This document shows, piece by piece, positions 927 to 12,356 of a DNA stretch of 29,990 bases. A program made the position numbers and the translations under genes. Origin of the DNA: a virus. Location: the IMG/VR virus record IMGVR_UViG_3300044825_000054, positions 1-29,990 of that record. One strand, written 5' to 3'. How positions within the stretch are numbered: position 1 is the first letter of the stretch; each line of letters opens with the position of its first letter. Under the pieces are notes generated by a model, which saw nothing but the letters and a program-made list of their open reading frames with translations, was not told where the DNA came from and searched no databases.

Positions 927-1078
927 CCAAGTTCCTTGATGATTGCTTGGATGGTGTAGCAAGGATAAAACCTTTTACAAGTACGGCATTGTGAAGTTGG
1001 CTTACCTTCAGGTGAATGCAATCTAACAACAGCAAGAAGAGCACCATCTGTTTTAGATAGTAATTCCTCGTGTGTCAT
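923..1078 (-). CDS. Small Cys-containing phage protein, 51 aa
   Basis: Too short for many gene finders, but a clear 51-residue frame exactly fills the gap between the protease and the 62-aa gene. It starts at an ATG overlapping the protease stop (TGATG) and ends with a TGA overlapping the next ATG (ATGA). The sequence carries LLAVVRLH, then CRTCKRFYPC and YTIQAIIKEL. The Cys-x2-Cys...YPC-x-TI-x-x-I pattern matches small proteins I know from actinobacteriophages, which are often annotated as hypothetical. Cys31, Cys34 and Cys40 could bind a metal together with a His or another ligand. Function unknown. Confidence 0.75.
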   Translation of the reverse strand: MTHEELLSKTDGALLAVVRLHSPEGKPTSQCRTCKRFYPCYTIQAIIKELG

Positions 1079-1641
1079 CAGTACTCCCGTCGTTGAGTAA
1101 CCAACTGTATTGGTGGGTGAGTATTGACGTCAAGCACTGACGCAATCTCAACGGACTTCTCGGCGTGTTGTTCTGGTTTTAGAGCAAGTGAATTACTTGT
1201 AAGACCAGCAAGATAACCAAGAGCAAACTGCCCACCAGTGCCAAGACCGTAGATACCAAGTTTGCTTTGGATGAACGAGAGGTCTGTCGCAACGTGGAAT
1301 AGGTTGCCAGCAAACGCAACAAGGTAGTCGAACCCTGAGTCTTTTTCTTTGTTCGCTTCATATGGGTCATATCCGTTATCTTTGAATGCTTTGACTATAG
1401 ATGGAAGAACTTTCTTACCCATCCAATGCACGGGGTCTGCACCTTTGTAGATGGGCGGAGTCCAGTTGTAGGCGAGAATATCTCCAGGCCGCGAGTCACC
1501 GACGATGCCTAGCAGATACTTACCCACGGAGACTATCTTCGGAACGGCAGTTGAGATAGTTCGGAGATTATCTTCAGTTACTTGGGAATCCGCTGCTAGA
1601 ATACAGCGGTCATCTAGTTGGATTCCAACGAGTGTAGTAAT
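1078..1641 (-). CDS. Proteasome beta / HslV-like Ntn-hydrolase protease, apparent ATT start
   Basis: A 187-residue protein beginning TTLVGIQLDDRCILAADSQ after the initiator. This matches the N-terminus of HslV and proteasome beta subunits: catalytic Thr (residue 2, exposed after Met removal), the AADS Asp (18) and VPKIVSVGKYL with Lys35 where HslV has Lys33. GIVGDSRPGD corresponds to the family's GFAGG segment, and GLGTGGQFALGYLAG to its GSGG...AL helix. The catalytic N-terminus is only complete if translation starts at ATT (1639-1641). No ATG, GTG or TTG lies between an in-frame TGA and this codon, and GAGGAAAGGA sits 7 bases upstream. The next possible start, GTG at 1527, would remove the active site. 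No HslU-type ATPase is seen in the window. Targets are unknown; host-protein turnover or virion maturation are guesses. Confidence 0.88.
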   Translation of the reverse strand: MTTLVGIQLDDRCILAADSQVTEDNLRTISTAVPKIVSVGKYLLGIVGDSRPGDILAYNWTPPIYKGADPVHWMGKKVLPSIVKAFKDNGYDPYEANKEKDSGFDYLVAFAGNLFHVATDLSFIQSKLGIYGLGTGGQFALGYLAGLTSNSLALKPEQHAEKSVEIASVLDVNTHPPIQLVTQRREY

Positions 1642-1648
1642 CGGTAGG

Positions 1649-1658
1649 TCCTTTCCTC
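1649..1658 (-). promoter_or_regulatory. Shine-Dalgarno site that sets the ATT start
   Basis: On the minus strand the sequence reads GAGGAAAGGA, followed after 7 bases by ATT ACT ACA. Spacing and strength are those of a normal ribosome binding site, and the encoded protein begins exactly where HslV-family proteins begin. This supports initiation at AUU rather than at a downstream GTG. Confidence 0.75.
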
Positions 1659-1681
1659 AGAGAAAAAAGTTTACTACCAGT

Positions 1682-1708
1682 CGGCGTGTCCGATTCGGAG
1701 ACACGCCG
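1682..1708. terminator. Perfect 9-bp hairpin, terminator-like on the plus strand
   Basis: CGGCGTGTC (1682-1690) pairs perfectly with GACACGCCG (1700-1708) around a 9-base loop. On the plus strand it is followed by TTTCTTTCT, as in an intrinsic terminator. On the minus strand it lies in the untranslated leader of the protease gene and is followed only about 12 bases later by six Ts. No plus-strand gene is recognisable to its left, so it could block antisense transcription into the zinc-ribbon gene or be a leader structure. Confidence 0.55.
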
Positions 1709-1714
1709 TTTCTT

Positions 1715-1743
1715 TCTACAATATGAGCGTCAGCGAATATATA
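1715..1743 (+). promoter_or_regulatory. Candidate promoter for the zinc-ribbon gene
   Basis: TCTACA (1715-1720) and TATATA (1738-1743) are separated by 17 bases and each match four of six bases of the bacterial -35 and -10 consensus. Transcription would begin near 1750 and lead into the only plus-strand gene. The match is imperfect, so this is a suggestion only. Confidence 0.35.
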
Positions 1744-2050: not shown

Positions 2051-2091
2051 AAAAAAAGAAGCCCTGAGGATTTCTCCCCAGGGCCTTTATT
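2051..2091. terminator. Bidirectional intrinsic terminator between convergent genes
   Basis: GCCCTG (2061-2066) pairs with CAGGGC (2079-2084), with a further two G-C pairs inside after one mismatch. On the minus strand the stem is followed by TTCTTTTTTTAT, a strong terminator for the late operon. On the plus strand it is followed by CTTTATT and would end the zinc-ribbon transcript. It sits in the gap between the two converging genes. Confidence 0.85.
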
Positions 2092-2314: not shown

Positions 2315-2782
2315 TTAGTCTCCTTTAGGACTTGGTACATCTTTCTTGACCGCCTTCTTTTTGAACTTGGCTTTTACCTTACTGCCAATAGACGGCTTTC
2401 CCATCCAAGCAAACCAAGGACTGGTGTCCTTAGAACATTCTGCTTTGATGGAAATATGTAGGTGCTTCTCGTGACGATTCGGTCCGGTGTAATCGCGCTC
2501 GCCATTGCGAGCAGACCAGATTCGACTATTGAATATTAGGTAATCCACCCGCTTGTCAGATTTCAACTGCTCAAAGATTTCTCTGCAGTCTATCCCGCTA
2601 TGTGGGTCGTGGGTTAAATCAGCAGCCAACCCTGAGTTATGGTCAGAGTTTGGGTTCTGTCTTATATGAGCAGCAGATGGAAGCAACCCATCACTAGCCT
2701 TGTTCCGCTTAGGAGCAATCGCAGTCGCTTGTCTCAGTACAGCAATCGCAGCAGGACTGGCAACTTTCACAAGTTTCTTCAT
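2315..2782 (-). CDS. Peptidase M15-like endolysin
   Basis: 155 residues carrying SDHNSGLAADL (His48, Asp55) and HEKHLHISI (His107, His109). This is the SxHxxGxAxD ... HxH zinc-binding pattern of M15 D-Ala-D-Ala peptidases and related phage endolysins. Such enzymes cleave peptidoglycan cross-bridges, so the product is the probable endolysin. No N-terminal signal peptide is evident. The C-terminal 25 residues are very Lys-rich (KVKAKFKKKAVKKD) and might bind the anionic cell wall in place of a separate binding domain. It is flanked on both sides by small membrane proteins, a typical lysis cassette. Confidence 0.87.
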   Translation of the reverse strand: MKKLVKVASPAAIAVLRQATAIAPKRNKASDGLLPSAAHIRQNPNSDHNSGLAADLTHDPHSGIDCREIFEQLKSDKRVDYLIFNSRIWSARNGERDYTGPNRHEKHLHISIKAECSKDTSPWFAWMGKPSIGSKVKAKFKKKAVKKDVPSPKGD

Positions 2783-2986
2783 TCATTTCCTTATCGCTTC
2801 TTTTACTAGGTCGGTTAGTAGGTCAACCTTCTCTTCCAAGGCGTTGACTTTATCCTTGATACTTGACCCACCATTGGGCTTTAGTTCAGATAGATAGTGC
2901 TTAGTCAAATGCTTTACTCCCATTGACAATGCTCCAATGAGGGTAGTGGCGGATACGGCTAATGCAGCCCAATCAGCAGGGGTCAT
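2783..2986 (-). CDS. Small membrane protein with coiled coil, second lysis-cassette membrane protein
   Basis: 67 residues. Residues 5-25 (DWAALAVSATTLIGALSMGV) form one probable membrane helix. The C-terminal half (KDKVNALEEKVDLLTDLVKEAIRK) has heptad-like hydrophobic spacing typical of a coiled coil. Single-span proteins with a cytoplasmic coiled coil next to an endolysin are common in phages of Gram-positive hosts, where they are called holin or holin-like. It abuts the peptidase gene. Which of the two membrane proteins is the holin cannot be decided here. Confidence 0.6.
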   Translation of the reverse strand: MTPADWAALAVSATTLIGALSMGVKHLTKHYLSELKPNGGSSIKDKVNALEEKVDLLTDLVKEAIRK

Positions 2987-3004
2987 TTACTGGCTCCTTG
3001 TAAG

Positions 3005-5200
3005 TTATACGCTTCTTATGGTCACCAACAGAACGCCACCAAACCCCGAGAATCTTTTATCGGTAGGTGTGCGGTTGATGAAATCTATTTCCTCTATTAG
3101 ACCGACGTAAGATTCACCGGTTCTAAAGTCTTCTACTCTGATGGTGTCTCCATTGTTTTCAATGGTTTCTAATTGTGTCATTCTCTGCCAAGCAGACCCT
3201 TCATAACCAACCATTACTCCAAACTTATCCATCTCGTGGTCAAAGCAGAGCGCTGGATATTGAATTAAACGTTGACGAGGAACGGCAGGTAAAGCCTTGA
3301 CTTGGTATCCAGTAAAGACTGGCGTCTTAGTACTGTCATTGCCAACATTAAATGTAAACTTAAATCCTAGATACTGCTGTGGTGTGGATGGATATGCGGT
3401 TCCAATCTCACCTACTGCATCACCTTGAGCAAATGAACCAAGACCAAACTCAGTGCCATCTTCAGTTACTGACTTAATTTCTATAGAGCCATTAGTTGTA
3501 TCAAACTGCGGAAGTAATAGTTTGAATCGCTTTAACTCCAAAGTGTTATATCGGATGTAGCCAGTTTGAAGATATCCAGAAGAAACATACCTGGTAGCAC
3601 TTTCAATATAAACTTTTCCATTTGTACCAGTTGCATTGGTGCAGAAAGCCAATCTGTCTGTACCATTAACGAAAGCACAGGCAGTGGTGTATCTTCCAGT
3701 TTCTGATGCGTAATAAGTATCCCAAGCATATGGGAATATCAAAGTTCCTAAAGATGTTCCTAGGTCAATACGGGTAGTTCCAGGAGCGCCATCAACGTTA
3801 GTAGCACACCAAACAAAACGGTCCCTAGCAGCAAAGTCATAGACTGGTTGCTCTGAGGTAAATAGCAATGGACCATAGGCTAAAGAACCATCATCAGATA
3901 CTGCCGATACTCGAACACCCTTGGTTGTACCAATCATCATATAGCCAAGGTAGTAATAAATCTTATAGATAAGTTCTCCAGCAGGCATCTCAGCAGCAGT
4001 AATAGCGCTGGTTAAGGTAGGCATAGTTCCATTAGAAGCCAAGGTAAACTTCTGGATATTGGACTGGCTACCTGAGAATCCGGTGACATAAATAGCAGCA
4101 CCGCTTGATGTGATGCTGGTATATATAAAGTCATCTACTGGGTGGGTATAGACAGCAGTAGGTAAAGCAGATGCTGTAGTTGAAATTTCAAATACTTTGT
4201 TATTGATACAAGCAACTATACGTTCCTTTGTAAACTCTATGACAGCATTATCAACTATAATTGATGTGGTCTTGAACATTTCTGTTGGCGCCACAGTATC
4301 GTCATCATTGAGTAACTTCTTATACATAGCGGTCTTATCCGTACCCGCATCATCAATCAAAGAAATCCAGTAGGCATATACGCCATCATCGCAGAGCGCA
4401 TAGACCTTATAGGCACCAGATGTTGCATAATCTTGGAAGTGAGTTTGATTGCTATAGGCAGTTCCAGCAGGGCTAACAGGCGTAGAAGTTACATTAGATG
4501 CAGTCTTAGCATAGGAAAAAGTATTAGCAGTAACAGCAGTAATCGTATAAGTACCGTTGAATGTAGCATCCACCCCAGATACTTCTACGGTCATACCTAC
4601 GGCAAAGCCGTGAGCAGTGGCAGTAAGGGTTGCCACGTTAGAGGTTAGAGCCTTATTGGTTACGCTTGCTGTGATTGTTGGGTAAACCTTGTCAATGTCA
4701 TAGCCATCAAGCAGTAGGCAACCGTCGTAAGTATTACCACTCTTTGTCCACTTGATTGAACGTAGATGCTGGTCTGGTTTGCCATTGCTATTTATATTAG
4801 CCGTAGTTTGGTGACCTGGGTCTACATCATAAATCAAAGTAGCCTGTCCTCTAGTCCAGACGTCTACACCTTTAGATTCGGTGTATTGGAATCTAAGTCC
4901 TTCATCCTGTGCTGGCTCAAAGTAAGTTATGCCCATTCCAAGATGAAATGATGATTGGCTACGGAACCACCAACCAGTAAGAGACTGTTCGCCTGCTTCT
5001 CTAGTCTGGTCGTACTGTTGTTTACGATACTGAGCAGTGACGCGACGGTAAGGAGAGTCATCAGAGGTCTGTAGAAAGAATGGCTGACCAGCAATGGCTA
5101 TGTCATAGGCTTCACCAGAAGCCGTATAGTTTGTAGCGCCTGCTGGATTGGAAAGTGTATACGGAATACCTTCCGTAATGTCATCGCCGTATGGGGCCAA
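3005..5200 (-). CDS. Large tail protein with inserted FCCH/Ig-like module
   Basis: 731 residues, the largest tail protein seen. The N-terminal 130 residues contain SLTGWWFRSQSSFHLGMG and GVDVWTRGQATLIYD, a pattern I associate with actinophage minor tail proteins. Residues about 178-248 form a separate beta-rich module (NVATLTATAHGFAVGMTVEV ... FNGTYTITAV) like the FCCH/Ig-like repeats often inserted in phage tail proteins. The middle has recurring short beta-strand blocks (YALCDDGVYAYWISL, YIGTTKGVRV-like) that suggest a beta-propeller. Size and position would suit a tail nozzle or hub of a short-tailed phage, but no enzyme or receptor motif is visible. Confidence 0.7.
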   Translation of the reverse strand: MAPYGDDITEGIPYTLSNPAGATNYTASGEAYDIAIAGQPFFLQTSDDSPYRRVTAQYRKQQYDQTREAGEQSLTGWWFRSQSSFHLGMGITYFEPAQDEGLRFQYTESKGVDVWTRGQATLIYDVDPGHQTTANINSNGKPDQHLRSIKWTKSGNTYDGCLLLDGYDIDKVYPTITASVTNKALTSNVATLTATAHGFAVGMTVEVSGVDATFNGTYTITAVTANTFSYAKTASNVTSTPVSPAGTAYSNQTHFQDYATSGAYKVYALCDDGVYAYWISLIDDAGTDKTAMYKKLLNDDDTVAPTEMFKTTSIIVDNAVIEFTKERIVACINNKVFEISTTASALPTAVYTHPVDDFIYTSITSSGAAIYVTGFSGSQSNIQKFTLASNGTMPTLTSAITAAEMPAGELIYKIYYYLGYMMIGTTKGVRVSAVSDDGSLAYGPLLFTSEQPVYDFAARDRFVWCATNVDGAPGTTRIDLGTSLGTLIFPYAWDTYYASETGRYTTACAFVNGTDRLAFCTNATGTNGKVYIESATRYVSSGYLQTGYIRYNTLELKRFKLLLPQFDTTNGSIEIKSVTEDGTEFGLGSFAQGDAVGEIGTAYPSTPQQYLGFKFTFNVGNDSTKTPVFTGYQVKALPAVPRQRLIQYPALCFDHEMDKFGVMVGYEGSAWQRMTQLETIENNGDTIRVEDFRTGESYVGLIEEIDFINRTPTDKRFSGFGGVLLVTIRSV

Positions 5201-10347: not shown

Positions 10348-11250
10348 TTAGCGAGATAGGTGGATACGGATTGGGAATTGGTCAGATAACTTCAATGCTT
10401 CCTCCTGAAGTCTCTGTTGGAACAAGGCAAAGACATATCTGGATACTGAAGAACCCGCAGATGCTGGAATCTTTGTATCGTTCAAGTCTGCTTCTGCAGA
10501 AGATAGATTGATTCGACCAGCATCCAAGAACGAAAGCAGACGGTAACAGGCACCATAAACAACAACATCTTGACAAGAGTCAGGTAACCCTGTGACATCA
10601 ACAAAATCATCTGTATTGGAATCCATAATATCTGGAACCATTGTGTACCAAATCTTTACAGTACGACCAGGCTGAATGTTCTCATAGATATTGATAGTCT
10701 TCTGAGTATTGAATGTTGGCGTATTTGCTAGTGGGTCAAATCTCCACTTGCGGATAGGTAGCCACTCAAGTGATGAACCCGTGGTCTGCCAAGACATATA
10801 TAGAACTTCTCGGCAATCATCAGGCAGTGGATAGGTTACTTGCGATGCGTTGAAAGTAAGAGTAGTTGAGCCAACAGCAAATAATTTAGGATAAAACGAA
10901 CGAATAGTATCGTTGATAGCCTTCTTAATTGTGACTCTAGGAAATGTTGGAGCCAAAGTAATCTGTGCATATTGGCTATGAGGTGAAGCAGTAGTTCCAA
11001 GGTATCCTCTACCAAACCCTGGTGCAACTACTAGAGCGTTATTAGCCTTGTCAAAAGAATCAATCCAGATTAGTTCATCATCAATCTCAATAATACCTTT
11101 GGCTAAGTTAGATGCTGAACCTGCGTTTATAGTGGTGGATGTAGTAGTCAAGCCATTCGCATTTGTCACATAGGTGATGCGGTCTTGGCGCAGTGTGTAG
11201 CCCTGCAGATTACTCTTGACCTCATCTACCAACTGGTCGAATGTAGGCAT
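10348..11250 (-). CDS. Head-tail adaptor / connector-like protein
   Basis: 300 residues. It starts with a helix (TFDQLVDEVKSNLQGY), has a beta insert with IIEIDDELIWIDSFD and RGYLGTTASPHSQYA, then TIKKAINDTIRSFYPKLFAV. The C-terminal half has DSCQDVVVYGACYRLLSFLD, the helical pattern of adaptor proteins that dock under the portal ring (T7 gp11 / P22 gp4-type fold is my inference). The insert resembles a domain also seen in tail fibre proteins. Its place between fibre genes and the glycosyltransferase is unusual, but no better adaptor candidate is present. Confidence 0.62.
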   Translation of the reverse strand: MPTFDQLVDEVKSNLQGYTLRQDRITYVTNANGLTTTSTTINAGSASNLAKGIIEIDDELIWIDSFDKANNALVVAPGFGRGYLGTTASPHSQYAQITLAPTFPRVTIKKAINDTIRSFYPKLFAVGSTTLTFNASQVTYPLPDDCREVLYMSWQTTGSSLEWLPIRKWRFDPLANTPTFNTQKTINIYENIQPGRTVKIWYTMVPDIMDSNTDDFVDVTGLPDSCQDVVVYGACYRLLSFLDAGRINLSSAEADLNDTKIPASAGSSVSRYVFALFQQRLQEEALKLSDQFPIRIHLSR

Positions 11251-12356
11251 TAGCCCTCCGTTATCTTCTCCTTGGCTTTCTCTATAGCCTCGGCTGCTTT
11301 TCCTTTTTCATACCAACCATCGCCCCATAGAGTCAGCAGGCGCTGGAAGTAATATTCATATTGCTTGGCGATTACATCTACGCCATAAGTCTCAACTGCT
11401 CTCTTGCGGATAGCAGCCCTATCTAAATTCTTTACATTTTGTGAAGCAAGGATAAATTCTTCTACGCTTCGGCATCTATAACCAGTAACACCTTGGACTA
11501 CAGTCTCTGTAAATGCACCCCAGTCTGTTGTGATTACTGGAGTTCCACAAGCCTGCGATTCAATGTTTACGTTACCGAATGGTTCTATATAAAGCGTTGG
11601 AACAAAGGTAGCAATAGCGCCACCCATAAGTTCTGCTCGCTTCTCAGGTCCAACAGGTCCGATGTACTCACCATAAGTTGGGATGTAATCACCAGGTCCT
11701 GCCATAATCAGTTTTGCACCTATCGTCTTGCAGATATGTGCTGCTACTTCAACGCCTTTTCTTGGAACCATTCTTCCAATGTAAAGGTAATAATCTCCAT
11801 CACCCTTACCGAGTGGGAACATATCAGGGTCTAAATATCCTGGAATTACCGCATCAAAGAACTGACCATCTACTGTCGCTGCGTTCTTGAACTGTGCATA
11901 GACTGCGTGCATCCAAGCGTATGATTCAAATACTCTGTACTGTGAAAATACTCCAGAGTATCCAACTCCGAACTCAACAGACATATGAGTTGGAAAAGCA
12001 TCTGCGATTGGCTTATGCGTAGCACCAGCAATCAAGCAGATAAAGTCTTGGTCTTTCAGACGCTTACGGATTTGCTTGATAGCATTTCCGTTGAACTTCT
12101 CCCAGTGAGGTAACTTGTAATCAAACGGTGCTTCTACATAGGGCTTCTTGCCTACTACGATTCTCCGTTGAGTCTCAGTTATACAAGGGATAAGTTCAGT
12201 TACAGTGGCTTCGTTTTCTTCGCCAGCATATAGATAAACCTCGTGACCAAGGTTTGTCATCATATTGCAGAACCTGCGTACCTTTTCGGTATAAGCGCAG
12301 TTAGCAAAATCTTTAGTTGTTTGGGTATGGGGCAGACTTACGACGTGGAATCTCAT
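11250..12356 (-). CDS. Glycosyltransferase, GT4-like (GT-B fold)
   Basis: 368 residues. The C-terminal half has YYLYIGRMVPRKGVEVAAH, then LIMAGPGD, then EPFGNVNIESQACGTPVITT, the E-x7-E nucleotide-sugar-binding motif of GT4 enzymes. The N-terminal half begins with a Rossmann-like strand (MRFHVVSLPH) and LGHEVYLYAG. It would transfer a sugar from a nucleotide-activated donor. It lies 12 bases after the GT25-like gene and downstream of the collagen-like gene on the same transcript, so a virion protein, especially the Thr-rich fibre, is a reasonable acceptor. Alternatives are modifying host surface glycans or phage DNA. Confidence 0.85.
   Translation of the reverse strand: MRFHVVSLPHTQTTKDFANCAYTEKVRRFCNMMTNLGHEVYLYAGEENEATVTELIPCITETQRRIVVGKKPYVEAPFDYKLPHWEKFNGNAIKQIRKRLKDQDFICLIAGATHKPIADAFPTHMSVEFGVGYSGVFSQYRVFESYAWMHAVYAQFKNAATVDGQFFDAVIPGYLDPDMFPLGKGDGDYYLYIGRMVPRKGVEVAAHICKTIGAKLIMAGPGDYIPTYGEYIGPVGPEKRAELMGGAIATFVPTLYIEPFGNVNIESQACGTPVITTDWGAFTETVVQGVTGYRCRSVEEFILASQNVKNLDRAAIRKRAVETYGVDVIAKQYEYYFQRLLTLWGDGWYEKGKAAEAIEKAKEKITEG

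Follow-up and report, generated by a model that had tools for sequence, protein, structure and literature searches.

Translation of a proteasome-like protease gene in a probably actinobacterial phage appears to begin at an AUU codon, with initiation being driven by a Shine-Dalgarno (SD) sequence in a short leader; a probability of roughly 0.7 is assigned to this reading. The gene lies in a window of 29,990 nucleotides (the whole stretch of DNA that was analyzed) and belongs to a phage gene family that holds AUU, AUC and AUA (collectively AUH) as natural start variants, each of them tied to a shift from an apparently leaderless to a leadered or coupled start.

The predicted protease and its start codon

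The gene is encoded on the minus strand, a point absent from an earlier sequence-only reading of the window. Its coding region and immediate 5' sequence comprise the following features:

1078..1641, minus strand: proteasome/HslV-like protease gene with ATT start, 187 aa, TAA stop at 1080-1078
1639..1641, minus strand: putative AUU start codon, predicted to give fMet followed by Thr-Thr, the Thr at residue 2 being the predicted catalytic Thr1
1649..1658, minus strand: Shine-Dalgarno sequence GAGGAAAGGA, separated from AUU by a 7-nt spacer (CCTACCG)
1657..1659, minus strand: in-frame TGA stop, sixth codon upstream of AUU
1525..1527, minus strand: first standard in-frame start, GTG, giving a 149-aa product without residues 1-38

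Read along the minus strand, the ATT at 1641-1639 continues with ACT ACA CTC GTT. The in-frame TGA at 1659-1657 excludes an N-terminal extension in the protease frame, and none of the codons between TGA and ATT (GGA AAG GAC CTA CCG) is ATG, GTG, TTG or CTG. The sequence-only reading had correctly noted this stop and the lack of an intervening start codon, but had placed the stop at seven codons instead of six; its position for GAGGAAAGGA, 7 bases upstream of ATT, holds, and the duplex with the anti-SD is predicted at −10.0 kcal/mol. Downstream, no ATG, GTG or TTG occurs until codon 39, leaving AUH as the sole possible in-frame start of the window protease. As had been anticipated, initiation at GTG 1527 would forfeit the active site, i. 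e. Thr1, Asp17 and Lys. Standard gene calling would nonetheless pick this codon and annotate a truncated protease lacking its active site. Between two relatives (L001 and L003), residues 2-39 differ by 17 synonymous and 0 nonsynonymous changes, a pattern indicative of strong purifying selection. Since these residues can be reached only from ATT, selection on them argues that the stretch is translated from ATT. Together with the upstream TGA and the recurrence of the codon in other contigs, sequence evidence says that the AUU start, as originally proposed, is real and evolutionarily retained.

The assignment of the product as an HslV/proteasome-like protease, likewise proposed beforehand, is borne out by profile and structure comparisons. 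The protein matches phrog_1040 ('peptidase HslV family') at 3.5e-18 and PF00227 weakly, the latter with hits in 39 of 40 family members. In a profile search, residue 2 aligns with the first chain position of BPH 5ovs and of human β5, their mature Thr1, and T2 (=Thr1), D18 (=Asp17), K35 and G48 are among the residues invariant in 40 homologues. An AlphaFold model (pLDDT 86.8) matches BPH, HslV and proteasome subunits in Foldseek, with BPH 5ovs as best match (TM 0.72, E 2.8e-10). With its N-terminal Thr, its Asp and Lys partners and its modelled proteasome fold, the protein is classed as a proteasome-like Ntn hydrolase of predicted activity. It scores 27.6 bits against the HslV equivalog TIGR03692 (cut-off 157.75), far too low for HslV proper, and is hence better described as proteasome-like.

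An actinobacterial host is suggested by the portal protein, which is 43-44% identical to Streptomyces phage portals and ~50% identical to that of an uncultured phage. A glycosyltransferase gene (11250-12356, minus strand), unlike the Streptomyces-phage-like portal, is ~39% identical to genes of Synechococcus phages ACG-2014f. When bacterial genome contigs were searched with the window protease, no relative turned up, and thus neither a prophage nor a host copy. The end of the upstream operon is marked by a strong intrinsic-terminator-like hairpin with a T-run (2059-2086, minus strand), which suggests that the protease heads its own unit. At 1076-1080 (minus strand), the stop codon of the protease and the ATG of the small ORF that follows overlap in TAATG, which suggests translational coupling within a short operon that leads on to an exonuclease-like gene (1-747). 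A plus-strand ORF (1760-2044, 94 aa) with a zinc-ribbon-like C-terminus (CxC...CxxC) lies between the protease and the late operon. It has no match in PHROG. Relatives retain it, with pN far lower than pS (0.07 versus 0.36 to L003, for example), and it is therefore probably a real gene.

Start codons and 5' architecture across the family

Relatives were gathered from IMG/VR by protein and DNA-pattern scans, giving 147 members distinct by sequence, among which close or overlapping loci may count twice (L181 and L206, for example, come from one contig). Their start codons are ATG in 92 cases, GTG in 44, ATT in six, ATC in one and ATA in four (11 AUH). At the aligned position, ATT is found in five other contigs (L001, L002, L003, L006 and L181/L206) and ATC in two (L007/L008). 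These seven contigs come from several metagenomes and all carry an SD leader. Among the SD-leader relatives, but not family-wide, AUH is kept despite third-position differences of up to ~50%. In L007/L008, an in-frame GTG lies five codons upstream of ATC, which is therefore not necessarily their start.

Further upstream, the window contains the following elements:

1642..1667, minus strand: 26-nt stretch from −10 box to AUU, containing the putative 5' leader of ~20 nt
1668..1673, minus strand: putative −10 box TAAACT (TANNNT), positioned relative to the hairpin as in the apparently leaderless relatives
1682..1708, minus strand: inverted repeat CGGCGTGTC-9 nt-GACACGCCG, family-conserved and immediately preceding the −10 box
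1718-1723, minus strand: second −10-like motif, TATTGT here and TATAAT in some relatives; it is conserved and precedes the protease by ~80 nt

In nearly all relatives, the protease is preceded by an inverted repeat ending in GACACGCC(G) and then a TANNNT box. This box stands 5-9 nt before AUG or GUG in 65 of 67 distinct upstream regions (90 of 94 in a larger set), as compared with a mean of 6.3 and a maximum of 14 in shuffles of the same 67 regions. With AUU or AUC as start, TANNNT still follows the repeat at the usual position, but 26 nt now separate it from the start codon, which is preceded at 6-7 nt by a strong SD, AAAGGA. Start type tracks this architecture without exception: a repeat-to-start distance of 19-27 nt goes with 78 ATG, 44 GTG and zero AUH, one of 41 nt with six ATT and one ATC and nothing else, and one of ~435 nt, caused by an endonuclease insert, with the four ATA only, the repeat motif being absent in 14 ATG members.

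TANNNT, the principal −10 motif of mycobacteria, indicates transcription starts in M. tuberculosis when its centre lies 7-12 bp upstream of them; about a quarter of the mapped genes of this species are leaderless (PMC3898074). Judged by sequence, TANNNT would place the transcription start of the AUG/GUG relatives at the start codon, and the mRNAs of those with the hairpin are probably leaderless. Leaderless mRNAs appear to need AUG (PMC5622118), a strict need with which the 44 GTG members agree less well. A purine-rich SD-like sequence is also present upstream in about half of the AUG/GUG members which, along with the second −10-like motif, implies that some of them may be leadered. The succession of this motif (1718-1723) and the inverted repeat (1682-1708) on the minus strand might also constitute a second promoter or an operator. 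A sigma-70 consensus scan returned no promoter just upstream of the protease gene; the −10 assignment rests on family comparison. Within the window, scans for Rfam families and tRNAs gave no match.

According to the preferred reading, the promoter would generate a leader of roughly 20 nt upstream of AUU, 30S subunits would be placed by SD/anti-SD pairing, and fMet-tRNA would initiate at AUU, before removal of Met exposes Thr1 as nucleophile. By analogy with infC and with Streptomyces sigR (PMC5472188), initiation at AUU is probably low-yield and IF3-sensitive; deliberately low or IF3-controlled translation, as suggested by the sequence-only reading, may apply on the same grounds. The AUG/GUG relatives would instead follow a leaderless route, for which the mRNA must begin with a good start codon. 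Once a leader with SD was present, AUH could have been tolerated or kept for a low protease dose; the low yield may be either selected or merely tolerated. A start-site comparison with four relatives revealed no other main gene of the phage that clearly needs a non-standard start. Flagged cases were inspected by eye and non-exhaustively, and each one inspected proved to overlap a neighbouring coding frame. On the basis of this comparison, the idea that the phage uses AUU starts habitually was rejected.

Two readings would deprive the AUU of its role altogether. A sequencing or assembly error at 1639-1641 might be suspected from the ATG or GTG that most relatives carry, and the sequence-only reading had regarded an ATG elsewhere as a sign of such an error. 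The relatives do mostly carry ATG or GTG, but on a different, apparently leaderless 5' end, so that their codon shows no error in the window, whereas ATT or ATC recurs in seven further contigs whose flanks have diverged and which stem from several metagenomes. These independent contigs refute an error, whose probability is practically negligible. It is also very improbable that the true start lies elsewhere (upstream in frame, via a frameshift or ahead of a propeptide), with AUU being an internal Ile codon. Propeptides are often found in proteasome β and HslV subunits (PMC8665760), and the upstream GTG of L007/L008 would suit an earlier start. However, propeptides are reportedly lacking in non-HslV prokaryotic homologues (PMC8665760), in agreement with a start directly before Thr. 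Moreover, the window provides no standard start in any frame from the putative −10 box to ATT, and this, together with the in-frame TGA, led to the rejection of an upstream or frameshifted start in the window.

The AUA lineage and the origin of the leader

In L283, L337 (=L304), L333 and L364, a gene for a 138-aa protein of the endonuclease VII family (PF02945, 5e-20) is located between promoter and protease. The insert was mapped as follows:

L337, ~2585-3005: endonuclease-VII-family insert exactly at the protease start codon
L283, ~585-1005: the same insert at the same site
L364, ~2585-3005: the same insert at the same site

While the empty site reads tatatttctctgctATGACGACACTGG, the occupied site reads tatatttctctgctATGACG-endonuclease-gggtcATAACAACG. 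The endonuclease gene uses the former ATG as its start, and its stop codon, TAA, shares bases with the protease ATA. Inserts are 97-98% identical between phages whose proteases are ~82% and whose promoters are ~40% identical, and their carriers occupy separate places in the CDS tree. This identity far above that of the host genes and the scattered carriers point to a mobile endonuclease gene. Occupied and empty sites occur in near-identical neighbours and thus represent a presence/absence polymorphism at one site. With an HNH/endonuclease VII domain and a polymorphic site, the insert resembles free-standing homing endonucleases, its cleavage activity being predicted. The mobile gene would have inserted at the start codon and taken over promoter and AUG, leaving the protease with an AUA that overlaps UAA. 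As read from these sequences, the AUA lineage is an example of one route to AUG loss. Its protease could be translated by termination-reinitiation or from an internal promoter, both of which are possible. Neither this lineage behind an inserted endonuclease nor the link between AUH and 5' architecture could have been revealed by one sequence alone.

How AUU and AUC came to persist can be explained in several ways. Tolerated drift, in which less depended on the start codon once the SD leader was present, so that AUU/AUC remain as real but unselected starts, is plausible, albeit at clearly less than even odds. AUH is present only where the 5' architecture helps otherwise (SD or stop-start overlap), the third base of the start varies between T and C, and SD changes can offset weak start codons (PMC5622118). 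Yet a single third-base change would restore AUG and is seen in no SD-leader sequence, although as many as about half of the neighbouring third positions differ. Between L200 (L003 contig) and L202 (L006 contig), the leader is also better conserved (26/26 identical) than third codon positions (20/39 matching). Given the few independent lineages, neither point is decisive. Compatible with SD-driven initiation at AUU, but on the unlikely side, is the idea that an endonuclease-VII-family gene had once inserted at this site and then eroded, leaving the SD leader and AUU behind as its scar. The 10-mer AAGGACTGCC is common to leaders of the L003/L006 type and the 5' end of the endonuclease gene, preceded in both by a TTTCTC segment in the same order, and the AUA lineage displays the required intermediate. 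On the other hand, the match was found post hoc, at least 10 shared bases also occur in 28 of 2000 shuffled leaders (1.4%), no more than 8 bases are shared in the case of the leader in the window itself, and ATA to ATT requires one more change. In the CDS tree, the SD-leader sequences form a supported clade together with three apparently leaderless AUG members (L020, L004/L005), and the occurrence of ATG without leader in this clade implies recombination, reversal or two gains. A more far-reaching and decidedly doubtful version holds that the endonuclease repeatedly seizes the leaderless promoter and AUG and thereby forces AUH. The AUU/AUC phages would then be endonuclease-less descendants whose SD leader stems from the scar and whose weak, IF3-sensitive start restricts the dose of protease.

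Comparison with known systems

The protease family provides a natural series for trade-offs between start codon, SD and leader, and in addition a case of a mobile gene that apparently captures the start of its neighbour. AUH starts are exceedingly rare: in a survey of prokaryotes, a single switch from AUG to AUU was recorded among 61,358 ancestral AUG starts (PMC5622118). A literature search for AUU start codons in combination with phage yielded no such phage gene by title or abstract, although absence is not thereby proven.

Like the protease gene, infC possesses AUU (E. coli) or AUC (ATC in Streptomyces; PMC5472188) as a conserved sole start. It differs in that infC autoregulates IF3, whereas the window gene encodes a phage protease without known IF3 link, and in that AUU/AUC is limited to one clade of the protease family. 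Streptomyces sigR, which is repressed by IF3 through its GTC start, is another non-canonical actinobacterial start missed by gene callers (PMC5472188), but it involves a different codon and a cellular gene, and for sigR the IF3 effect has been demonstrated. On the protein level, phage proteasome homologues have been described by Fuchs et al., and the window protease has in common with PPH, AAH, BPH and HslV the proteasome-like fold, the Thr1/Asp17/Lys set and the absence of a propeptide (PMC8665760). Its length of 187 aa does not suit PPH, which has ~140 residues and lacks helix H2; its model shows helices at 50-59 and 70-88. It falls far under the HslV equivalog cut-offs. Finally, free-standing HNH homing endonucleases of T4-like phages are likewise mobile at a gene boundary, where they use upstream promoters and displace those of the neighbour (PMC2988022). 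Unlike these, the endonuclease of the AUA lineage also occupies the AUG of its neighbour, which would then start at AUA.
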